Shown here: positions 25,951 to 46,318 of the stretch, piece after piece
Layout: each line of letters begins with the position of its first letter
Numbering within the stretch: the stretch's first letter is position 1
Source of the DNA: an uncultured Spartobacteria bacterium
Lineage (GTDB): Bacteria; Verrucomicrobiota; Verrucomicrobiia; Chthoniobacterales; Chthoniobacteraceae
DNA length: 50,768 nt
Assembly (NCBI GenBank): GCA_903929475.1
Contig: CAIYUV010000204.1
Span: 1 to 50,768, forward strand
Direction: 5' to 3'
Notes under the pieces: model-generated
The model's input: the letters and a program-made list of their open reading frames with translations, nothing else
What the model was told of the DNA's origin: nothing
Databases searched by the model: none
Position numbers and translations under genes: made by a program

Positions 25951-27705
25951 TTATTTCCGGCGACGACGAGTGACGGTAAGGAGGCCGAGGAGAAGAAGGC
26001 TGGTGCTGGCCGGCTCAGGCGCCGGGGTGACATTCCATGCAATGCCGTAGGGCTGGGTGTTGGCGTCGTTGATAGTGTCGTAGATTTCGCCCTCCCATGT
26101 GACGCGGAGGGTGTAGTCGCCACTGTCGGGGACGACGAAGCTGAGGTGCTGGACGCTGGTGTATTGGGCGATGCTTTCGGCGATGAGAGTGGAGAGGCTG
26201 TTGCCGTCGTTGCGCCAAAGCTGGAGGCTGAGTTCGTCGAGGCTGGCGTCCACGCTGGTCTGGGTGAGTTGATCAAAAGTGCGATCGGCGAACCATGCGA
26301 GTGTGGCGGTGAACGTGTCGCCAGCGAGGATGGATTCGCTGATGATGTAGTCTGCGGGCGAACCGGCGCTGACCTGGCCATAGTCCCATCCACGACGGAG
26401 GACGTTGCCGCCACCGAGACCGGGCAGTCCGGCAGTGGTGTTGAGGCCGAGGATGCGGATGCCGGCGGGAAGTGGGTCGCCGATTTGGATGCGGTAGGCG
26501 TCCACGAGATTGAGCGCGCCTGCGCCGACGACGTAGTCGAGCGCCTGCGTGGTGCGGATGACGCCGCCATCGAGATGCTGTCCATTGTCCCATCCGGGAG
26601 TTTTGGTGGCAGCGGTCATGAGGATGGCCTTGATCACGCGCGGGTCGTTGATTTCACCACCGCCGAAAGATTTCCCCGCATCCACCATGAGCGCGGCGGC
26701 TCCGGCGACGATGGGCGCGGCGAAACTCGTGCCGCCCATGTCGGGAATATAATACTGGGCTTGAAAGGGGCCCACGGTCGGGTCGGTGCCGTGGATGTGT
26801 CCGCCAGTGAGTCCTCCGTAGAATGCGAGGGTGAGGTTGTCGCCGGGTGCGGCGATGTCCACGGCGGCGCGGACATGCGGGATGGTGATTCCGGTGGCAG
26901 GATTGTAGAAATCATTCGGCCCGCGGCTGGAAAAAGTGGCAACAGTTGAGAAGGGGTTCGGGCCGGTGTCTCCAGTGAGCGCGCCGACGGAGATGCCGTT
27001 GAATCCCGCAGCAGGACTGCCCACCGTGCCAATAGTCGGCCCTTCATTTCCCGCAGCAAAAACGCCGACCGCTCCGGATGCGCGCAGGATGGCGTCAATA
27101 GTGACGGTTTCAAAATTCGCGCCGGTCGGATCGCTAAAGCCCCAACTGCTGTTGATGACGTTCGCGGTGTGTCCATTCACTCCCGTGAGCAGGGGTTTTG
27201 TGTAGCCGTAGAGGAAACTCGCATCCGTGATCTCAAAGCTGCCGACATATTCGTCCGTGGGACCGCCGTTCCACTGTGTGGCGATGGCCGATGACCAGAG
27301 CGTGGCCTGCGGTGCGATGCCGTCTTGAAAAGTGTAGAGACCGTTTCCGTTGATGGCCTGCCCGACCATCGTCGCGTGCCAGTCAAACTGCCCGAGCGAA
27401 GTGCCGGCGATTGTCGGGTCACTGAGGAAAGTGCTGACCTGCGTGAGCGTCTCGTGCCCGTTCCAGACGTAGCCCGCCTCGATGTTCGCCACGATGGCAT
27501 CCGTGCCGAAATAACCCTCGTAGTAATACAGATCCGCGCCAATGGCCTGATTGATATAGAGTCCGTTGAAGATGTTCGTGCCAGAATCGCTGCCGACAAG
27601 CGCGAAGGCAGGCGTCGCCGCAAGAAGGAGCGCCGCAAACAAGCCGAGGCGTCTTTTACGAATAGTGGAAATGGGTGAAGGTCGGGAATCGAGCGGGGTG
27701 CTCAT
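25951..27705 (-). CDS. Secreted S8 (subtilisin-like) protease with PEP-CTERM end
   Basis: A 584-residue exported protein. The start is set at MSTPLDSRPS (27705), giving a signal peptide ending near TPAFALV. The subtilase core has His110 (FDWHATMVG), Asn220 (AAGNEGP) and Ser327 (GGTSFAAPIVAG). The position of the first catalytic Asp reads IVANIEAGY, with Glu76 in place of Asp. The C terminus ends in a PEP-CTERM-like sorting signal (APEPAST, a short hydrophobic helix, then RRRR). The PEP-CTERM processing genes (exosortase) are not in this window. Substrates are unknown. It converges on the membrane-protein gene ending at 25911. Confidence 0.82.
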   Translation of the reverse strand: MSTPLDSRPSPISTIRKRRLGLFAALLLAATPAFALVGSDSGTNIFNGLYINQAIGADLYYYEGYFGTDAIVANIEAGYVWNGHETLTQVSTFLSDPTIAGTSLGQFDWHATMVGQAINGNGLYTFQDGIAPQATLWSSAIATQWNGGPTDEYVGSFEITDASFLYGYTKPLLTGVNGHTANVINSSWGFSDPTGANFETVTIDAILRASGAVGVFAAGNEGPTIGTVGSPAAGFNGISVGALTGDTGPNPFSTVATFSSRGPNDFYNPATGITIPHVRAAVDIAAPGDNLTLAFYGGLTGGHIHGTDPTVGPFQAQYYIPDMGGTSFAAPIVAGAAALMVDAGKSFGGGEINDPRVIKAILMTAATKTPGWDNGQHLDGGVIRTTQALDYVVGAGALNLVDAYRIQIGDPLPAGIRILGLNTTAGLPGLGGGNVLRRGWDYGQVSAGSPADYIISESILAGDTFTATLAWFADRTFDQLTQTSVDASLDELSLQLWRNDGNSLSTLIAESIAQYTSVQHLSFVVPDSGDYTLRVTWEGEIYDTINDANTQPYGIAWNVTPAPEPASTSLLLLGLLTVTRRRRK

Positions 27706-27984
27706 GCGAGCGGGAAAATGAAGAATCACGGCGCTTTTGCCAGCACTCTTTTTGTCATCAACAACTTCCCCTTCCCCCGGCGCCACCATGGTTCCGCCAT
27801 CGCCACAGAACAAAAAGGCCACCCGCCTTGCCATAGATGGCCTTTGGTGAAAGGAAGCGGGTAATCTGTCCCTCCCTACTTCCCTCCCAGCCAGTCCAGA
27901 GCAGGAAAGCCCCGGCAGTGATGCAAAAGCGGTTCAGCCTCTGGATAAAACAGTCTCAACCCTGTGGTGCTTAATCACCTGCAT

Positions 27985-36698: not shown

Positions 36699-37088
36699 AT
36701 GTCCACCGTCTATTCAGCAACAGGCCGTCGCAAGACATCCAACGCACAGGTCCGCCTCACCGCAGGCACCGGAAAAATTCTCATTAACGGACGTCCTTAC
36801 TCCGAATACTTCGCAGTCGCCGCGCAGCAAAGCGCAGTGCTCAAGCCCTTGGAAATCACCAAGACCATCAACACTTTTGACATCGCAGTGAACGCCAAGG
36901 GCGGCGGCGTCTCCGGTCAGGCCGGAGCCACCAGCCTCGGCATCGCCCGCGCACTCCTGCAAGTGAACGCAGAAAATCGCCCCGCACTGAAAGCCGAGGG
37001 CCTGCTCACCCGCGATTCGCGCATGAAAGAGCGTAAAAAGCCCGGTCAACCCGGAGCCCGCAAGCGCTTCCAGTTCAGCAAGCGCTAA
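36699..37088 (+). CDS. rpsI: 30S ribosomal protein S9
   Basis: A 129-residue small-subunit protein. Characteristic segments are SATGRRKTSNAQVRL near the start, GGVSGQAGATSLGIARAL, and the basic C-terminal KPGQPGARKRFQFSKR that reaches the decoding centre in the family. Its last residue is Arg, as usual for S9. It is the second and last gene of the rplM-rpsI operon; a terminator follows. Confidence 0.98.
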   Translation: MSTVYSATGRRKTSNAQVRLTAGTGKILINGRPYSEYFAVAAQQSAVLKPLEITKTINTFDIAVNAKGGGVSGQAGATSLGIARALLQVNAENRPALKAEGLLTRDSRMKERKKPGQPGARKRFQFSKR

Positions 37089-37236: not shown

Positions 37237-40200
37237 TTACTCGACGCCGGGTGTGCCGAGGGCTTCGATGTTTTGGTCGCGGAACCAGCCAACGTCCGCG
37301 CGAATTTCTCCGGTCGCGGATAATTGCAGCCAGCCGCTCAGAATTTCTTTCGTGCCGGGCACATGTGCGAAGACGGGCAGTCGTCCATCTTGTGAAAGCA
37401 ACGCCCCTGCCGTGAATGGGACTTTACCGCCGGGAAAGTCGCCAGTGATGCGCACGGAGCCGTCTGCGGCGACGTTCGCTTGCAGCGAAGCTCTGCCCAC
37501 GCTCGTTGCGAGCGCTGTGACGTGTCGGCCACTCCACACGGATGGCAGCGGAGTTTTTGCCGTCCCAAAGAGCGCGTGATGGCCGCTGATCTCGACGATG
37601 AGCGCCTCGCTGTGCAGGGCCCCGCGCATTTGTTGTGTGAGGGGGTCGAGTGCGAGCTGAACACGCAATGGCTCCGCTCCCTTGCGTGGAATTTTGATCG
37701 CGGCTGTTCCATCACGCGAGACGCGTCCGTTCAACAGAATGACGCCGTCCGGCAGAGATAGTTTTCCCGTGAGAGCGCCGGTTTTATCTACAAGAAATGT
37801 GATCTTTGCCGTATCGGCGAGTGTGTTTGCCGATGCGATGCCGATCCATTTTCCGCGCAGCTCGGCGAATGCGAAGGGGCTCGTGGGATCGGCTGTTTCG
37901 GTGTCCTCGTGCTGGAGAAGAAAGGCGGGCGCGGAGTCGTTGGTGTTGCTAGTGCCGCCGTTTGCCTTGGGGGCGGCAATCATCGCTGTGAGTGTCTGGG
38001 GTCCGCCGCTGCCGACGTTCACGGTCGTCGTGGCTTCGTTCGTTGCGCCGCCGTTGTCGGTGACTTTCAGACGCACAGTGTATGTGCCGGGCACGGTGTA
38101 GATGATGCTCGGGCTTGCACCGGTGAGCACGGTCTCGGCGACCGTTGTGGTGCGAGTGAATTTGAAATTATCGAAGATCGCAGTGCCGGGCGCAGTCTCG
38201 GGCTGCCATGTGCCTGCGGTGATTTCGGCACGCACGGCGGTCACGGGAAATTGCACCGCCAAGCTGTGCAATGTCTGCCACGTCGCACCATCCGCGCTGG
38301 CCTCGTAGGCCCACAGCGGTGTCGCGCCGGGAACGTGGCGGATGCGCCAGAAACGCTGCTGCGCGGGGTTGTAGGTGACAGCCTGATAAGTGATCGCTGC
38401 TCCGACAAACTGGCAGCAATAAAGCACGCCAGCCTCCTCGACCATGATCGCGCAATTGTTCGCGGTCTGGCAGACTGCGAGCAGCGTGTTCGATTGTCCC
38501 GCGCCCGCCTGCACGACTTCCGCACTCACGGCACCGCCGGTGAAATCGAACGTATTCGCGGTGACGTAGCCAGCAAAGCGGTCATTGCTCACGCCGCTGC
38601 GCAAAACGATTTCGAGTCTTTGATTTCTTTCCGCGACCGTGATGCTGGGATCAAATCCCGCCGAGCCCGCGTAGATGGTGCCGAAGACTGTGCCGACGCT
38701 CCATTTCGCAGCATCGCGTGCGTTGTCCGAAAAATCGTCGCTGAGCAAGGTGGTCACACGCGTGGTATCGCCCATGCGCCATTCGTAGTTCGCGATGCTG
38801 CCATCGGGATCGGACGAAGTGCTGCCATTCAGCGTGAGCGCCGTGCCGACGGTCGCGCTATATGGCCCGCCCGGTCGTGCTACGGGCGGCTGGTTCACCG
38901 GCGTGCTTGTGATCGTCGCCGTGGTGCTAGCGGTGTTCGTCGCGCCGGAATTGTCGGTGACTGTCAGCGCAACGGTGAAAGTGCCAGCAGTGCTGTAAGT
39001 CTTCGTCGGCGTCGGGCTAGTGGCAGTGGTGCCGTCCCCGAAACTCCACGCGTAGTTTGCAATCGTGCCATCCGAATCGCTGGACGTGCTGCCGTTAAAC
39101 GCAACCGCAACTCCCGTCGTGCCCGCGTAAGGGCCGCCGGGTCGTGCGACTGGCGGGACGTTTGCCGGTGCCGAAATCACAGCAGTTGTCGTCGCTGTGT
39201 TCGTCGCGCCCGCGTTGTCAGTCACGGTCAATGCGATGGTGAAAGTGCCCGTCGCAGCGTAGGTCTTCACAGGCGACACACCGCTCCCCGTCGTCCCGTC
39301 GCCGAAATCCCACGCGTAGTTGGAAATCGTGCCGTCCGCATCGGTGGACGCCGAGCCATTGAGCGTGAGCGCCACGCCGCGAGTCGCGGAGTAAGGGCCG
39401 CCGGGCCTCGCGACTGGCGGGAGATTTGCAGGCGGTGTGACAGTCGAACGCACAAGCTGAAACGAATCGAAAATCGCCATCGCAGGCGCTGCGACCGGCG
39501 TTCCGGTGCCCGCACCAAACTCCACTTTTGTCGAAGTCATCACAAAGCGCGCATTGTCCATGCGGAGCGTCTGCCACGTCGTGCCATCGGCGCTCGTTTC
39601 AAACGCAACTCTCGCCGGACTGCCCGATGTGTGGCGGATGCGCCAGTATTGCTGTTGCGTCGCGTTGTATGTGTGGGCGGAGATTTGGCGAATGCCCGCG
39701 ACAGTTTGATCCAAATAAAGCCCGCCGCTTTCCACGACCATGAGCAGGAAATTCTGCGGATCCTTTGCCACCGCGAGGTAGGTGTCCGCATCTCCACTCG
39801 CCGTCTGCTGCACGCGCACGCTAGCCGCAGCATCGGTAAAGTCGAACGCCGCCGCCGAAACATAGCCGGCATAGTGATCGCCGGCGACGTTCGCGCGGGG
39901 CTGCACCTCCACGCGCTGATTGCGTTCAACGACGGGAATCGTGTTATCAAAACCAGCCGCGCCGGATTCGATCTGCGCGATCGTGCCGACATTCCACTTC
40001 GCAGCATCGCGCAAGTTGTCGTTGAAATCATCCGCGAGCAGAATTGTCGGGCCGCTCGTTGTGTAGTTCACTGTCAGTGTATTCGACGCGATATTGCCGT
40101 CGCCGTCGGCATCCGTGGCGAGATTTGCAGCCACAGAAATCACGACATCCCCCACTACAATCGGCGTGACTGTGAATGTGTAGTTTGCACCGCTGCCTTG

Positions 40201-43200
40201 AAGATTGCTCGCGACACCATTTGTCACCGTGATGTCGCCAAGCGCGAATCCCGTGGCTGCGCTGCTGAAACTTGCAGTGACACTAAACGCTGCGCTCGCA
40301 CTCGCCGGAGCGCTGAGTGTGACACCGAGCGACACGGGTGCGGAGGAGATGCTGTCATCGAGATTGTGCAAGTAAGCGACAAGATTTCCGAGATCCGCAT
40401 CACTGAGGATCACGCCATTGTGAGCGCGCACCGCCGTGCCGAGCGTCGCTGCCGCGCCGTCGTGGAGATACGGAGCCGTGGCCCACAGTCCGCGCAAAGT
40501 CGGCACATCGAGCCCGGTGAGAGCGCCGCCGAGACGCTGGCCGCTGCTGGGTTTGAGCGTGCCGATGTCGCGGAAAACGCCGAGTGCGCTGTTGCTGAAA
40601 TTGACGCCGCCATGACAGCTTGCGCAGTTCTGCTGTTTAAAAATCGTGCGCCCGGCGAGAGCTGCGGCGGGGAGTGTTGCAGCGTCCACGCGCGCAGGAC
40701 TCGCGCCGGTTTTCGTGAGCGAAGCAAGGTAGGCCGCGAGCGCGTCGAGGTCAGCGCTGCGCCCGGCGTTCGGAGCGCCGAGCGTGGGGTTCGGCGTGCC
40801 GCCTGCGATCAAGCCGAGCCCGCCTGCGAAGTTACGAATTTGCCCTTCAAAATCCTGGAACTCGTCGAAGTTTCCAGTCCAGTGCAACGCACCCTGATTG
40901 CCGTGTCCACGCAGCGTGATCGTATTTCGCAGGCCCTCGCCAAAGCCGGTGAAATCCCACACGCGGCCATCATGCCCCGCGTCGTTATGGCAGCCTGCGC
41001 ACGAAAGATATTCCTGCAAAGCGAGACGGTTGTCCTTTGAATCATAGAAGAGTTGTTTTCCAAGCAGCACCTGAGCAGTGAGCTTTTCAGTCGCAATAGA
41101 ATTCAACGTAGCCGTCGTTGTGGCGGGCAGCACACCGCCGCTCACAATCGCGCTCACGTCGTGAACCGTCACCGTTCGATCCATGAAGTTTTGCACGAAA
41201 AGCGTCCTACCATCCGGCGAAATCGTGAGCCCTTGCGGCGCACGGCCAGCGGCGAAACGAGTGATCTCCACTGCATTCCAAACATCCACGACTGCAATTG
41301 CGCGACTGCCCTCCAGTGCCACGAATGCGTAGATGCCCGATGGATCGTAACAAACTGCGCTCGGGAGCCCCGCGTTGTCGAAATCCACTCGTGAGTTGTA
41401 GTCTTCGGTCTGCGTCACGAGATCGATCCGCGAAGCAATCGGACGCACCGCGCTCTCGTGCGTGAGGCCCTGACCGCTGCGCAGCACGCCGCGTTTGATG
41501 TTGTCCTGCTTCGACGGCACCCATGCTGAAAGTCCGTCCGGCGAAATCGCCGGGGCACCGAGGTAATTCGGAATGCCACGCCCGGAGATTGTCGTGTCCG
41601 GCTCCTCGCTATGCTGGAGGATGATCGTGCGCGTGACAGTCACCGTCGCTGCATTAATGACGAGCACCTCGCCCCCTTTGCCAGTGGTATCAATCACCGC
41701 CGTCTCCTCGCCCGGCAGGCGCGGAGTGATGAAACGACTCACCAAAACTTTCGCGCCATCCGCACTCACACTGAGATGCCGGACGTCCAGCCCGGCGGCG
41801 ATGTCCGCGAGTTGAGTGCCGGTCGAAGGATTCAGTTTCAACACACGGCCTGTTCCCTCCAGCGCAACCCACGCCGCAGTTCCCGCAGGATCAAATGCGA
41901 TACCAAACGGACGCGAGCCGCGAGGGAGCGTGATTGTCTGCGCAAGCGCATAGGTGGTGTTGTTCAAGATCGAAATCACTGCGCTGTCGGCGGCAGTCAC
42001 CCACACGCGGCCATCGGGCGCAATTGCCACGCAGCGCGGCGAAGTGCCCACAGTTGTCTCAGCCAGTTTCGCGCGAGTAACTGCGTCGAAAACCGACACC
42101 GTGTCCGCGTCAGGATTCGCGACCCACACGCGGCTGTTTGCCGGCGTGTGTGCTTCGTAGGCAATGCTGCTTGATGCATTCGGTTTTCGCGTGGTCAACG
42201 GCGCGAAGACGCCCTGGTAGAAGCTGGCCGTCACGATACGCCCCGTGTCGTCGGTGGCTGTCACCGTCACGAGGTAGCGTCCCGCCTGTGCGAATGTGTG
42301 CGTCACGCTCGGCGATGGCGAAGAGGCAGAGTTTGCGGTGCCGTCGCCGAAGCTCCACACGTAGCGCGGATTTTTTCCACCGGTGCTCTGCACGGTCAAA
42401 GCAGTGGACGAACCGCGCATGACAGGCGCGCCCTGTATCGGGCTGAGTGTGAGCGCAGAATTGATCGTCCATTGAAAATTCACCTGCGTGCCGCCGCCGG
42501 AAATTACCACGTTGTAAGTGCCGGATGTAGTCGGCGCGCCGGAGATCACGCCCGATGTGCTCCCGATGCTCAATCCCGCAGGCAGTCCCATTGCCGAGTA
42601 GGAAGGTGGTAAACCACCGCTGCCTGCGACTTGGATTTGCAGCGAAACGAGCTCGCCAACGACGCTGGTTTGATTGCCGGGATTCGCGAGATTGATCGGC
42701 GTCGCGGTGACTTGGATGATTTTCGAGACGGAGTGAACGCTTTTTGAATCGAGCGCGAAAAGCATCCAGAAACCGGGCGTCATCACATTCAGATTCGCGT
42801 GGGAAGTGAGTTCGTAATTTCCCGCCGCCACCTCGCTGAATGGGAGTTCGATATAGCGCAGATCCGTGTTCACGGAGTGTGTCTGCGACGACATTTTGAT
42901 GAACGCAAATTTCGACAAGCCGGCGGTTGCATTCACCGTGAAACGAACGCCAGGCCCGATCTGCGTCGGCGCTTGCGTGATAACCGGACGCGTAGCGAGC
43001 GTGCCGTCTGCGTTGAAGAGCGCGGGAGGGGTGAAAATTTGTGCGTCCTGATGATCTGCGGAATTTCCTCCGAGGCCGCCGCCGCCTGACCACACGCGGC
43101 CATCTGGGAGTAGCAGCGCGAGTGAGTGGTAATTGCGCGGGACGCTGTTATTCGCGAGCGTCCGCCATGTGCCGGTGCGCGGGTTCCACACTTCGGGCGT

Positions 43201-44265
43201 GAGCACGGAGCCGGTGTCGTTGAATTTCAACCCCGTGTTACCGCCAATCACCATCACCTCGCCGCTTGGAAGAATCACCGAGTTTGCAAACTGCCGCGCG
43301 AATTGCATCGAGGCCGCAGACTGCACGACGGGTGTCGCACCGTTCAGATTCACCGTGTAGGCTACGTTTGTGCTCGTGCCCGTGGTGGAGTCGCTTGGGT
43401 TCGGCGTGGTGTTTGCACCGCCGCCAGCAACGACGATTTTACCTTCGTCATACATCGCCCAGCAGCCCTCTTTTGGATAGTGCGTTCCGGGGACGTTTAG
43501 CCCCGATGCTGTGAGCGTTCCACTGCCGTTGGGATTCACCCAGTCCATCGAGCGCGTGGGGCCGAAATGAAAGAGTTGACCATTCGGTGCGATGAGCAGA
43601 AATGGATGCCAAATGTTGATGTAGCCCGCCTGGCTCGTCACCGTGCTCCAGTTAATGCCGTTGAGCCGCTGCCAGCCCGACGCCGCATTCCAACGCTCCG
43701 CCGTGTTCGAGCCGCCGCTGCCGCTCACGGTGAAAACGGTGCCGTCCGTGAGCGCCACGCTCGTGTTATACCAACGCGGATCGTTCATGTTCGGAATCGC
43801 AGTCCATTGATTCGTGCGATAGTCGAAGATGCTGGAGAGCACTGTCGTGTTGCGTCCGCCGTTCACGACGACGCGGCCATCCGGCAGCATCGAAACGCCG
43901 CCGCAGAACATGTCGTGGCGCGTGTTGTTGATCTCGGTGAATTGCCCGGTCGCCGGATCCCACACTGCTGCGTAGGTAAATTCAGGCCCCGATGGAAAAG
44001 TCGTGCGTTGATTCGATGCGAACGTGAGCAGTCTGCCGTCTGGCAATTGCGCAGCCGTGACCGGAATGTGAGGCGTCCATGGAATGACCGCGGACCATGT
44101 GCCGGAGCCGACGGGATCCGTCGCGGGTGCTGCTGCTGCAACGTAGGCCGGAGCGAGCGCGGCGGCATCGGCGGCGAGTTGATCGGAAAGCGCGTGATCC
44201 GTGGTGCCTGCAAACGCGGAGGATGCGAGGACGGCGAAGACAAATGAGATGCGAGACAGTTTCAT
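37237..44265 (-). CDS. Giant exported copper-radical oxidase / di-heme peroxidase multidomain protein
   Basis: A 2342-residue protein with a signal peptide (MKLSRISFVFAVLASSAFAG). Residues about 50-520 form a galactose-oxidase-like kelch propeller plus its C-terminal Ig domain. In HDMFCGG, RWYNTS, NYHSLALLLPDGR and THSVNTD, Cys121, Tyr166, Tyr379, His380 and His463 match the Cys-Tyr cofactor and copper ligands of galactose oxidase. The stacking Trp next to the cofactor is not seen at its usual place. Then come an Ig-like domain (525-600), a PKD (615-680), a YVTN-type propeller (710-1035) and a di-heme peroxidase module (1060-1300) with CAGCH (1089-1093) and CASCH (1214-1218). A beta domain, a LamG-like module, two PKDs, a third PKD split by a second LamG-like module, and a C-terminal domain follow. 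Family copper-radical oxidases make H2O2. The partner gene ends 14 bases upstream. Confidence 0.85.
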   Translation of the reverse strand: MKLSRISFVFAVLASSAFAGTTDHALSDQLAADAAALAPAYVAAAAPATDPVGSGTWSAVIPWTPHIPVTAAQLPDGRLLTFASNQRTTFPSGPEFTYAAVWDPATGQFTEINNTRHDMFCGGVSMLPDGRVVVNGGRNTTVLSSIFDYRTNQWTAIPNMNDPRWYNTSVALTDGTVFTVSGSGGSNTAERWNAASGWQRLNGINWSTVTSQAGYINIWHPFLLIAPNGQLFHFGPTRSMDWVNPNGSGTLTASGLNVPGTHYPKEGCWAMYDEGKIVVAGGGANTTPNPSDSTTGTSTNVAYTVNLNGATPVVQSAASMQFARQFANSVILPSGEVMVIGGNTGLKFNDTGSVLTPEVWNPRTGTWRTLANNSVPRNYHSLALLLPDGRVWSGGGGLGGNSADHQDAQIFTPPALFNADGTLATRPVITQAPTQIGPGVRFTVNATAGLSKFAFIKMSSQTHSVNTDLRYIELPFSEVAAGNYELTSHANLNVMTPGFWMLFALDSKSVHSVSKIIQVTATPINLANPGNQTSVVGELVSLQIQVAGSGGLPPSYSAMGLPAGLSIGSTSGVISGAPTTSGTYNVVISGGGTQVNFQWTINSALTLSPIQGAPVMRGSSTALTVQSTGGKNPRYVWSFGDGTANSASSPSPSVTHTFAQAGRYLVTVTATDDTGRIVTASFYQGVFAPLTTRKPNASSSIAYEAHTPANSRVWVANPDADTVSVFDAVTRAKLAETTVGTSPRCVAIAPDGRVWVTAADSAVISILNNTTYALAQTITLPRGSRPFGIAFDPAGTAAWVALEGTGRVLKLNPSTGTQLADIAAGLDVRHLSVSADGAKVLVSRFITPRLPGEETAVIDTTGKGGEVLVINAATVTVTRTIILQHSEEPDTTISGRGIPNYLGAPAISPDGLSAWVPSKQDNIKRGVLRSGQGLTHESAVRPIASRIDLVTQTEDYNSRVDFDNAGLPSAVCYDPSGIYAFVALEGSRAIAVVDVWNAVEITRFAAGRAPQGLTISPDGRTLFVQNFMDRTVTVHDVSAIVSGGVLPATTTATLNSIATEKLTAQVLLGKQLFYDSKDNRLALQEYLSCAGCHNDAGHDGRVWDFTGFGEGLRNTITLRGHGNQGALHWTGNFDEFQDFEGQIRNFAGGLGLIAGGTPNPTLGAPNAGRSADLDALAAYLASLTKTGASPARVDAATLPAAALAGRTIFKQQNCASCHGGVNFSNSALGVFRDIGTLKPSSGQRLGGALTGLDVPTLRGLWATAPYLHDGAAATLGTAVRAHNGVILSDADLGNLVAYLHNLDDSISSAPVSLGVTLSAPASASAAFSVTASFSSAATGFALGDITVTNGVASNLQGSGANYTFTVTPIVVGDVVISVAANLATDADGDGNIASNTLTVNYTTSGPTILLADDFNDNLRDAAKWNVGTIAQIESGAAGFDNTIPVVERNQRVEVQPRANVAGDHYAGYVSAAAFDFTDAAASVRVQQTASGDADTYLAVAKDPQNFLLMVVESGGLYLDQTVAGIRQISAHTYNATQQQYWRIRHTSGSPARVAFETSADGTTWQTLRMDNARFVMTSTKVEFGAGTGTPVAAPAMAIFDSFQLVRSTVTPPANLPPVARPGGPYSATRGVALTLNGSASTDADGTISNYAWDFGDGTTGSGVSPVKTYAATGTFTIALTVTDNAGATNTATTTAVISAPANVPPVARPGGPYAGTTGVAVAFNGSTSSDSDGTIANYAWSFGDGTTATSPTPTKTYSTAGTFTVALTVTDNSGATNTASTTATITSTPVNQPPVARPGGPYSATVGTALTLNGSTSSDPDGSIANYEWRMGDTTRVTTLLSDDFSDNARDAAKWSVGTVFGTIYAGSAGFDPSITVAERNQRLEIVLRSGVSNDRFAGYVTANTFDFTGGAVSAEVVQAGAGQSNTLLAVCQTANNCAIMVEEAGVLYCCQFVGAAITYQAVTYNPAQQRFWRIRHVPGATPLWAYEASADGATWQTLHSLAVQFPVTAVRAEITAGTWQPETAPGTAIFDNFKFTRTTTVAETVLTGASPSIIYTVPGTYTVRLKVTDNGGATNEATTTVNVGSGGPQTLTAMIAAPKANGGTSNTNDSAPAFLLQHEDTETADPTSPFAFAELRGKWIGIASANTLADTAKITFLVDKTGALTGKLSLPDGVILLNGRVSRDGTAAIKIPRKGAEPLRVQLALDPLTQQMRGALHSEALIVEISGHHALFGTAKTPLPSVWSGRHVTALATSVGRASLQANVAADGSVRITGDFPGGKVPFTAGALLSQDGRLPVFAHVPGTKEILSGWLQLSATGEIRADVGWFRDQNIEALGTPGVE

Positions 44266-44279
44266 AGCTGCAATTGAAT

Positions 44280-46082
44280 TTACGGTTGGGCCGCGAGTGC
44301 GGGTTTGGCTGGGTGGAGGAAATTTTCGTCGGTGAGCGTTTTGAGGAAGGCGACGAGATCGCGCTTTTCATTCGCAGTGAGCGACAGCCCGGCTTCGGGA
44401 TGTTTCGCGAGGTTTGGGTCGAGCGTGTCGCTGCGTTGCACGCCGGTGCTGTAGTGCTCCACGACTTCTTCGAGCGTGGCGAAGCGTCCGTCGTGCATAT
44501 ATGGCCCGGTCGCGGAGATGTTGCGCAGCGATGGCGCGCGGAATTTTCCACGGTCCGCCGGATTTTTTGTCACCGCCATGCGGCCCACATCATCGGCGGC
44601 GAGCACGAGTCCGTTGTTGTGAAATTGATGATCGGTGAAGAGCGTGCCGCCATGGCAATGAAAGCAATCCGCCCCGCGTAAGCCGCGCGCCGGATCGAAT
44701 TCCGTGAGAAAAAGCTGCAAGCCGCGCTTTTCCGATTCGTTCATCTCCGCCTGCTTGCGCACCGCGAGATCGAAGCGCGAATCCTGCGAAACGAGCGTGA
44801 GCAAAAACTGCTCAAGTGCCTTCGCCACGTGTTCGCTCGTCACGCCGCCGCTGCCAAATGCCTTCGCAAAATCAGCGGCGCAGTCTGCATCGGCGGAAAG
44901 TTTCGCCACCACGCGATCCAGATTTTCATTCATCTCGTGTGCGTCCTGAATGGGCATCAGCACTTGCTCGCGCAGCGACTTCGCCCGGCCATCCCAAAAA
45001 AACTCCGACTGCCACGCTAGATTGAAAAGCGCCATCGCGTTCCGTTTTCCCGTCTGCCCCTCCGCGCCCGTGCTCGTCTTGCGCGGATCGGCAAACGCGC
45101 TGCCCTGCATATGGCAGCTCGCGCACGACTGCGTGTTGTTCACCGAGAGTCGCGTGTCGTGAAACAGCCGCCGCCCGAGCGCCACGCCCTCGTCCGTGAG
45201 CGGATTATCCGCAGGCAGCGCGATGCGCGGCAGACGCTGCGAGACTTCCAGCCGACGCGCCGTCGTGCCGGGCGGAATCGTTGTTTTCACCACCGCCGCC
45301 ACATTTTCCTGAAACGCGTCGCCCTTCACCGCGCGCACTTGGAAAGCACCCTCCGTGTTCTTTTTCAACCGCACCGCCAGCGCATCGCCAGCCCGCGAGT
45401 GTGTGGATGCGCCGTCGCGCGAAAAATCCACACCATCGAGAATGTGTGCCACGTCGAGCGTGATTTGGATCGTATTCGGCTGCGCGCCGCGCAACGCCAC
45501 GGGCAACTCCACCGTCATCAAATTTGCATCGTTGCCGAGGTGATACGAGTAGCCGCCGACTGCCTTTCCGCGTTTCGCATAATGACCTTCCAGCGCGAGG
45601 AACACATAGCCGCCCTGCCAGCCCCAATGCAGTTTGTTCACGTCGGGGTGAAGCGCCGAGCCGGGCGTGATGGTATTCGGATCAGTCGCATTCATCGCAG
45701 CGCTCACGCCCACGTGAAAACGGATCGCTTTGAAATCCTGCGCAGGCACTCCATCGGCAAACGCCGCCGTCCGCCCCTCGCTCGCGCTGATGAACGCCGC
45801 CCAATCGGAAGCGCCATCCAGCCACGAGCCATCCATTCGTTGGAGACTCAGCCCGCTGATGAAATAATCCAGCCGCGCCACGCTGGGCTTTCCCTCCTCG
45901 GCCAAAGCGGTGAACTGCACCGGTCGCCCGCACCATTCATGGCTGAATTCCAGCGGCAGCACTTCGCCTGAGGCTGACGAAACGGCGAAGCAAACAAGCA
46001 AGCTGGCAACAAGACTGCGCAAATTTCCGGCAGCCTTTGCTAAAATGATCATCGCACGCAGTTCTCGCGGGTGGGAGTGCAT
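44280..46082 (-). CDS. MbnP-like domain fused to MauG/MbnH-like di-heme peroxidase
   Basis: A 600-residue exported protein; the signal peptide ends near SSASG (a start at 46052 is also possible). Residues about 41-230 match the MbnP (TIGR04052) family: VLPLEFSHEW, an FHVGVSAAMN strand, LHWGWQGGYVFLALEG (151-166) and GGYSYHLG. Residues about 280-590 are a di-heme cytochrome c peroxidase of the MauG/MbnH kind with CASCH (320-324) and CFHCH (473-477), plus RAPSLRNISATGPYMHDGR. MbnP and MbnH are normally separate partners, and MbnH oxidises a Trp of MbnP that takes part in copper binding; here they are one chain. The next gene, 14 bases downstream, is the copper-oxidase/di-heme giant. No methanobactin genes are nearby. 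Confidence 0.85.
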   Translation of the reverse strand: MHSHPRELRAMIILAKAAGNLRSLVASLLVCFAVSSASGEVLPLEFSHEWCGRPVQFTALAEEGKPSVARLDYFISGLSLQRMDGSWLDGASDWAAFISASEGRTAAFADGVPAQDFKAIRFHVGVSAAMNATDPNTITPGSALHPDVNKLHWGWQGGYVFLALEGHYAKRGKAVGGYSYHLGNDANLMTVELPVALRGAQPNTIQITLDVAHILDGVDFSRDGASTHSRAGDALAVRLKKNTEGAFQVRAVKGDAFQENVAAVVKTTIPPGTTARRLEVSQRLPRIALPADNPLTDEGVALGRRLFHDTRLSVNNTQSCASCHMQGSAFADPRKTSTGAEGQTGKRNAMALFNLAWQSEFFWDGRAKSLREQVLMPIQDAHEMNENLDRVVAKLSADADCAADFAKAFGSGGVTSEHVAKALEQFLLTLVSQDSRFDLAVRKQAEMNESEKRGLQLFLTEFDPARGLRGADCFHCHGGTLFTDHQFHNNGLVLAADDVGRMAVTKNPADRGKFRAPSLRNISATGPYMHDGRFATLEEVVEHYSTGVQRSDTLDPNLAKHPEAGLSLTANEKRDLVAFLKTLTDENFLHPAKPALAAQP

Positions 46083-46245: not shown

Positions 46246-46318
46246 GGGCCTGTAGCTCAATGGTCAGAGCAGGGGACTCATAATCCCTTGGTTGCGGGTT
46301 CGAGTCCCGCCGGGCCCA
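46246..46318 (+). tRNA. tRNA with CAT anticodon (probably Ile2)
   Basis: A 73-base tRNA with acceptor GGGCCTG/CGGGCCC and discriminator A; no CCA is encoded. The anticodon loop is CTCATAA. The anticodon arm GGGGA/TCCCT with the terminal G-T pair and the TTGGTT variable loop closely resemble tRNA-Ile2, whose C34 is modified to lysidine by TilS. An elongator tRNA-Met cannot be excluded by eye. Confidence 0.9.

Follow-up and report, generated by a model that had tools for sequence, protein, structure and literature searches.

A two-gene unit joining an MbnP-MbnH fusion to a giant predicted copper-radical oxidase in Verrucomicrobiota, a candidate copper/heme oxidation system

Copper-radical oxidases (CROs) need both copper and oxidation to the radical form. 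Those of the galactose/glyoxal oxidase family (AA5), GlxA among them, have a set of copper ligands, a Cys/Tyr pair and a kelch propeller with an early-set domain. In the fungal Perox-AlcOx pairs, a secreted peroxidase encoded beside an alcohol oxidase activates it (PMC9770985), and GlxA of Streptomyces depends, for its copper maturation under low copper, on Sco and the DtpA peroxidase, a need that is rescued by copper (PMC4736821). A WxW-bearing MbnP domain, a MauG-type di-heme partner and a link to copper are common to the MbnP-MbnH gene pairs, MopE/SACCP and CorA/CorB; PMC3621798, a section title of which calls the MbnP-MbnH pairs mysterious partners, describes their conservation well outside methanobactin producers. 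Finally, hydrazine synthase beta-gamma consists of a seven-bladed propeller followed by a two-heme CCP-like domain, and has homologues outside anammox bacteria, one of them in Opitutus terrae (PMC12758564). Here we describe a unit of two genes, an MbnP-MbnH fusion gene and a giant gene for a predicted CRO, in a stretch of 50,768 nucleotides from an uncultured Spartobacteria bacterium (contig CAIYUV010000204.1, hereafter the window). The two genes and the gap between them are:

44280..46082, minus strand: MbnP-MbnH fusion gene, 600 aa, predicted exported
44266..44279, minus strand: gap between the fusion and giant genes, 14 bases (9 of the 13 pairs have an ATGA overlap instead)
37237..44265, minus strand: giant gene, 2342 aa, with copper-radical oxidase, Ig/PKD, YVTN propeller, di-heme module and Ig/PKD tail

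The giant gene lies directly downstream of the fusion gene on the same strand, with 14 bases from the fusion stop to the giant ATG; the reading frames are exactly those given in a preliminary description of this DNA. That description also stated that no terminator separates the genes, which holds because the gap is too short to contain one; terminator-like matches across the region (12, compared to 11.2 in shuffles) show no excess. Both N-termini resemble Sec signal peptides when judged by eye, in keeping with the export that had been predicted for both products.

Synteny in Verrucomicrobiota had been proposed as a check on the pair, and the two genes are clearly not unlinked in all relatives: the fusion gene was found directly upstream of the giant gene, on the same strand, in 13 of the 14 giant-bearing genomes. 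The resulting 13 pairs, each in a different genome (the window, L052 in G008, L073, L074, L075, L077, L093 and L190-L195), are tightly joined, by a 4-nt overlap in nine (always ATGA), by a 1-nt overlap in one (L191), and with gaps of 14 nt in the window and 19 nt in two others. The giant could be read as far as its di-heme module in 12 of the 13, and in all 12 the module is in the same open reading frame (ORF) as the CRO, as it also is in two giants that are not linked to a fusion (L159 and L160). In G008 (L052 4151-11139) a frameshift or an assembly error within the PKD region divides the giant between two ORFs.

The pairs were drawn from three sources. Of 147 relatives, 28 had a match to the fusion or to its di-heme part and 17 had one to a CRO; a CRO more than 60% identical to that of the giant was present only in the window's genome and G008, and of the other CRO loci the three that were retrieved (L069-L071) had neither fusion nor di-heme module. 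In a contig scan for relatives of the fusion, the giant gene was directly downstream in five of the best 80 of at least 586 loci (L073, L074, L075, L077 and L093). A phylum sample of 387 genomes gave a CRO in nine (the window's own, G334, G337, G346, G362, G381, G387, G482 and G430), and in all of these except G430 the fusion directly precedes the CRO gene and shares its strand; by identical coordinates, G482 is the genome of L093.

Fusion identity between pairs is 44-72% (12 compared). When 245 flanking ORFs of 12 pairs were compared (L073 was left out, its contig holding nothing else), flanking genes were common only to the close trio L190/L191/L192, beyond a few weak matches of 27-39% identity. 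This flank test rules out a larger conserved operon, and the recurrence of the pair in 13 genomes at this divergence, with flanks mostly unshared, rules out chance adjacency. Furthermore, the pairwise distances of fusion and CRO correlate across the 12 pairs (r 0.885), a value not reached in any of 2000 permutations.

The paired fusions are also distinct from other fusions. In a tree of 42 fusions, made by a quick method and with no bootstrap, the 13 paired sequences and one more (L072) form a single clade (SH-aLRT 99) with the 28 others outside, and the pairing label changes twice on the tree compared to 11.3 times in shuffles. A giant is encoded in the genome of every one of the 14 clade members, L072 among them. 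By tblastn, genes for YHYH, CusA, CusB or two-component proteins are found within 5 kb of 20 of the 29 unpaired fusions, L072 being counted here as one without such neighbours, and of none of the 13 paired fusions; this count includes generic two-component queries and some short contigs, such as those of L073 and L077, and CusA/CusB make up only 3 of the 20 neighbourhoods. The difference is consistent with the paired sub-clade having moved away from copper efflux and to the oxidase. A paralogue of the fusion in the window's own genome (L062; G000:C52:43001-63000) follows CusB, CusA and an 1818-aa frame with YHYH and multicopper oxidase parts that is cut by the start of the locus.

The fusion protein has the following features:

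45966..46082, minus strand: predicted signal peptide region, about residues 1-39, by eye
45411..45956, minus strand: MbnP domain, residues 43-224, PF20243
45618..45626, minus strand: W-x-W motif (W153, W155) of MbnP, a candidate kynurenine site by analogy with MbnP/MopE
44304..45215, minus strand: MbnH/MauG-type di-heme domain, residues 290-593
45111..45125, minus strand: first heme c motif of MbnH, CASCH, residues 320-324
44652..44666, minus strand: second heme c motif of MbnH, CFHCH, residues 473-477

The MbnP domain named in the preliminary description is matched by PF20243 with E 1.3e-28 and 100.6 bits against a gathering score of 27. In all 17 aligned fusions W153 (the first Trp of WxW), H181 and H228 are invariant in the MbnP part, as are W363 (the Trp between the hemes), Q373, P377, E383 and Y544 in the heme domain. 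Two CXXCH motifs, a Trp between the hemes, distal Gln/Pro/Glu and an axial Tyr, which we take to be the equivalent of MauG Tyr294, are thus all present, and by the alignment the MbnH site of the fusion is complete. The spacing of W, Q (+10), P (+14) and E (+20) is that of MauG Trp93, Gln103, Pro107 and Glu113, residues that PMC6405878 describes as important. The closest solved structure, in sequence as in fold, is 6e1c, a MauG-like protein whose description ties it to microbial copper homeostasis; the AlphaFold model of the fusion (76.5) served only for this fold matching.

In the giant, the N-terminal module carries these residues, assigned by alignment, with their counterparts in galactose oxidase numbering:

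42706..44136, minus strand: CRO module (galactose/glyoxal oxidase-like, AA5-like), residues 44-520
43903..43905, minus strand: Cys121, corresponding to the cross-linked Cys228
43768..43773, minus strand: Trp165-Tyr166 (RWY), Tyr166 corresponding to the cross-linked Tyr272
43126..43131, minus strand: Tyr379-His380, corresponding to Tyr495-His496
42877..42879, minus strand: His463, corresponding to His581

The best PDB chain for this module is 9g8h (E 1.8e-97, residues 48-519, covering kelch and early-set domains). The copper-radical site residues Cys121, Tyr166, Tyr379-His380 and His463 are invariant in seven aligned CRO modules, L073 being included by its part only, and in six of alignment A1; their roles at the Cu/Tyr-Cys site are presumably those of the galactose oxidase residues. 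Judged by these residues the giant is a predicted CRO with a complete Cu/Tyr-Cys site, as the preliminary description had it. There is no Trp in the alignment at the place of galactose oxidase Trp290, where a Gly/Ser stretch is found; this is not taken to exclude AA5, since a Trp at this place is not universal in the family. A Trp precedes the cross-link Tyr (RWY), which is typical of glyoxal oxidases.

The remainder of the giant is made up as follows:

42463..42699, minus strand: He_PIG domain, residues 523-601
42238..42453, minus strand: PKD domain, residues 605-676
41101..42180, minus strand: YVTN propeller, about residues 696-1055, with a fold like hydrazine synthase beta
40357..41076, minus strand: di-heme module, residues 1064-1303, CCP/hydrazine synthase gamma-like
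40987..41001, minus strand: first heme c motif, CAGCH, residues 1089-1093
40612..40626, minus strand: second heme c motif, CASCH, residues 1214-1218
37237..40305, minus strand: C-terminal region with Big_12, a weak DUF1349 match (below cut-off) and PKD repeats

It had been claimed that both products hold di-heme peroxidase modules. Both do have motifs for two hemes, and the MbnH site is intact, but the distal pocket of the giant's module departs from CCP/MauG. The match to PF03150 (32.5 against 25.6 bits) covers only the first half of the model. Each of the 14 giants whose readable sequence extends to the module has two CXXCH motifs. Where CCP/MauG have the distal Gln/Pro/Glu loop, the giants show an invariant NFDE..DFE.QIR stretch instead, and despite the missing loop the Trp is kept. 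It could be that the Gln and Glu within this stretch act as distal residues. Because the loop is absent, the module is not filed as CCP and the name peroxidase is not safe for it.

The propeller and di-heme part is matched by NF052342 (hydrazine synthase beta-gamma) with E 8.7e-16, at 57.2 bits against a cut-off of 1250, and the predicted propeller has an archaeal YVTN-PKD protein as its first and hydrazine synthase beta (5c2v_B) as its second fold match. An identity of the giant as hydrazine synthase was rejected, the match being at module level only and far below the curated cut-off. AlphaFold gave a good propeller for this part, in a model with a mean pLDDT of 58.9 overall, nearly all of residues 367-627 below 50 and no usable di-heme part, so that the arrangement of the heme ligands could not be taken from it. 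Close to the sixth-ligand loop of the second heme there is a His that is invariant; the alignment is gapped there, and this His aligns with the LAKH His of MbnH and not with the MbnH Tyr. Bis-His ligation of this heme was therefore not assigned, and two modules without a CRO (L227 and L229) lack the His. The propeller/di-heme module itself occurs in 13 further large-protein loci without a CRO match (L218-L230), in proteins that carry Big_5, PKD, LVIVD or LamG domains (5 of the 13 loci were Pfam-scanned); genomes G452 and G336 have three copies each.

Six giants were scanned for glycan-binding domains and each had at least one: a legume lectin in L074, L190 and L193, PA14 or PA14/GLEYA in L075, L093 and L195, with H-lectin also in L093 and CBM6/CBM35 also in L195. 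DUF1349 is present in L074, L075 and L190. The lectin or PA14 domains of these relatives sit between oxidase and propeller; the window's giant has, besides Ig/PKD, no glycan-binding domain above cut-off. The simplest reading is that the giant would be a surface or released enzyme acting on polysaccharide.

Around the pair, a convergent rpsI (36699-37088), behind rplM, lies downstream of the giant gene, and a tRNA-Met (46246-46318, opposite strand) and a divergent panE lie upstream of the fusion gene. None of these neighbours suggests a functional link, and the earlier view that no nearby gene explains the pair better stands. The 10 neighbouring ORFs scanned include no methanobactin-type gene, the precursor peptide itself not having been searched for, and no hydrazine synthase alpha subunit, for which the rest of the genome was not searched. 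A subtilase-family (S8) protease gene is present elsewhere in the window (25951-27834).

With a probability of about 0.4, and so tentatively, we suggest that the pair is a small operon for one extracytoplasmic oxidation system, in which a glycan-directed CRO has MbnP-MbnH as its copper-loading or activation partner. Acting on a glycan, or on a molecule associated with one, the CRO would convert alcohol or aldehyde groups to aldehyde or acid and would make H2O2 from O2. MbnH may then use H2O2 to oxidise the WxW Trp of the fused MbnP to kynurenine, a conversion known for MopE and likewise for MbnP, and so create an extracytoplasmic copper site. The fusion would load copper into the CRO at copper scarcity, or restore its oxidised Cu(II)-radical state as peroxidases do for other copper-radical oxidases, or both; since a copper protein and a high-potential heme enzyme are present in one chain, MbnP-MbnH could serve loading as well as activation. 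The di-heme module of the giant would most likely carry electrons or remove peroxide beside the oxidase. A closed two-gene loop, where MbnH, linked until now with copper uptake and efflux, would serve the cofactor of the giant glycan oxidase while the H2O2 of the oxidase drives MbnH, with the hydrazine-synthase-like di-heme module built in, is possible but on the unlikely side.

Several points weigh against the operon reading. The case for the pair's function draws entirely on sequence comparison and precedents, and the correlation of fusion and CRO distances speaks for joint inheritance only, not for function. The fusion scores 43.5 bits with TIGR04052 (MbnP equivalog), whose cut-off is 140, and 267.3 bits (E 1.8e-79) with TIGR04039 (MbnH), whose curated cut-off is 362.85, the MauG model being the next match for the di-heme domain (E 3.6e-60); with both TIGR scores below cut-off, it is classed as a divergent relative, MbnH-like and no equivalog. 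Fungal galactose oxidase forms its Tyr-Cys link with only Cu and O2, so that a maturase is not obligatory. There are also exceptions to the linkage. In G147 a fusion of the pair clade (L072) occurs with two giants (L159, L160), all unlinked. The genome of G430 gives no fusion match, and its distant CRO (40% identical) is truncated by the edge of its contig, for which reason it is not counted as a giant. Outside this phylum, related CROs occur in 4 of 345 genomes of another sample, probably Bacteroidota, and in one of the four, G714, a chain of 2480 aa unites CRO, propeller and di-heme module; MbnP-MbnH is not adjacent to it, an MbnP gene and an MbnH gene being elsewhere in the genome. Since the CROs of G147, G430 and G714 occur without a linked MbnP-MbnH, the giant is a unit of its own, and its link to MbnP-MbnH was seen, in the genomes sampled, only in Verrucomicrobiota.

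The 345-genome sample represents one phylum, the draws via L137 and via L096 having taken largely the same genomes; of the other CRO frames in it, two of G785 and one of G835 are cut off where the retrieved contig stops. L137 is titled Phycisphaerales and draws the same sample as the Bacteroidota-titled L096 (Chitinophaga), so its label looks wrong. Upstream of the G714 giant, on the same strand (L239 5494-7818), are a GMC-like oxidoreductase and a cyclophilin-like lipoprotein, by eye.

Alternatively, the fusion may serve the copper balance of the cell, the pair being a copper-acquisition operon in which the giant is a copper-responsive co-product and neither protein acts directly on the other. 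This would suit the own-genome paralogue beside CusB/CusA and a YHYH/multicopper oxidase protein, the 20 of 29 unpaired fusions with YHYH, Cus or two-component neighbours, and the spread of MbnP-MbnH pairs far beyond methanobactin producers (PMC3621798). The paired fusions, however, have no such genes within 5 kb in any of 13 cases and are a clade of their own with a giant in the genome in 14 of 14 (L072 included), and we think this explanation unlikely. The giant could also be self-contained, its propeller/di-heme module acting in cis as the peroxidase partner, through use of H2O2 or re-oxidation of copper, and MbnP-MbnH only supplying copper. The single chain of CRO and di-heme module in all 12 readable pairs and both unlinked giants, and the G714 chain with no MbnP-MbnH beside it, would be expected from such an arrangement; it is nevertheless quite improbable, as the CCP/MauG distal Gln/Pro/Glu is replaced by NFDE..DFE.QIR, and the 13 loci without a CRO match show that the module is not a dedicated CRO partner.

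The module might also wire the enzyme as a dehydrogenase, with substrate electrons going through its hemes not to O2 but to an acceptor such as a cytochrome. Its likeness to hydrazine synthase beta-gamma (NF052342 and the second-best fold match, 5c2v_B) and the invariant His near the sixth-ligand loop are consistent with this, and the second heme of hydrazine synthase is thought to carry electrons (PMC12758564). Against it, no acceptor gene is linked and the ligand assignment is ambiguous in the alignment. To our knowledge, CROs characterised so far use O2, and we hold such wiring to be very improbable.

The preliminary description spoke of an undescribed system. This fits the combination only, because MbnP-MbnH pairs and CROs are each known. 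In the literature searched, which included few subscription papers, neither titles nor abstract openings described a CRO that is fused to or encoded beside a di-heme protein, be it a propeller/di-heme module in the same chain or an MbnP-MbnH fusion in the same operon; these two arrangements appear to be new. For the role of MbnP-MbnH outside methanobactin loci the paired sub-clade, having swapped copper-efflux neighbours for one copper enzyme, offers a direct and testable client enzyme. The pair also suggests that Verrucomicrobiota have giant CROs that may be directed at glycans.

Compared to the MbnP-MbnH pairs, MopE/SACCP and CorA/CorB, the two partners are here one fused protein, below the TIGR cut-offs, which adjoins a CRO and not methanobactin or efflux genes. 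The giant shares the AA5 architecture and copper site, and differs from GlxA and other AA5 oxidases in having no Trp at the Trp290 place, in its RWY, in its fusion to a propeller/di-heme module and, among its relatives, in added glycan-binding domains. Unlike hydrazine synthase gamma, it has Trp and not His in the heme I region (PMC12758564), and its module is fused behind a CRO, with no alpha-type partner among the 10 neighbours scanned. GlxA-DtpA-Sco of Streptomyces lividans likewise involves a bacterial CRO, one whose copper maturation needs a heme peroxidase and a copper protein, but there the DyP peroxidase and Sco are encoded away from glxA and no di-heme protein takes part. In the Perox-AlcOx pairs of Colletotrichum and Magnaporthe a CRO gene is likewise kept beside the gene of a secreted heme enzyme; the latter is a class II peroxidase and the genes are head-to-head, whereas here a MauG-type di-heme enzyme is fused to a copper protein and the genes are on the same strand and mostly overlap. 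The pair would thus be a bacterial counterpart to the fungal oxidase-peroxidase pairs, built from unrelated heme enzymes.

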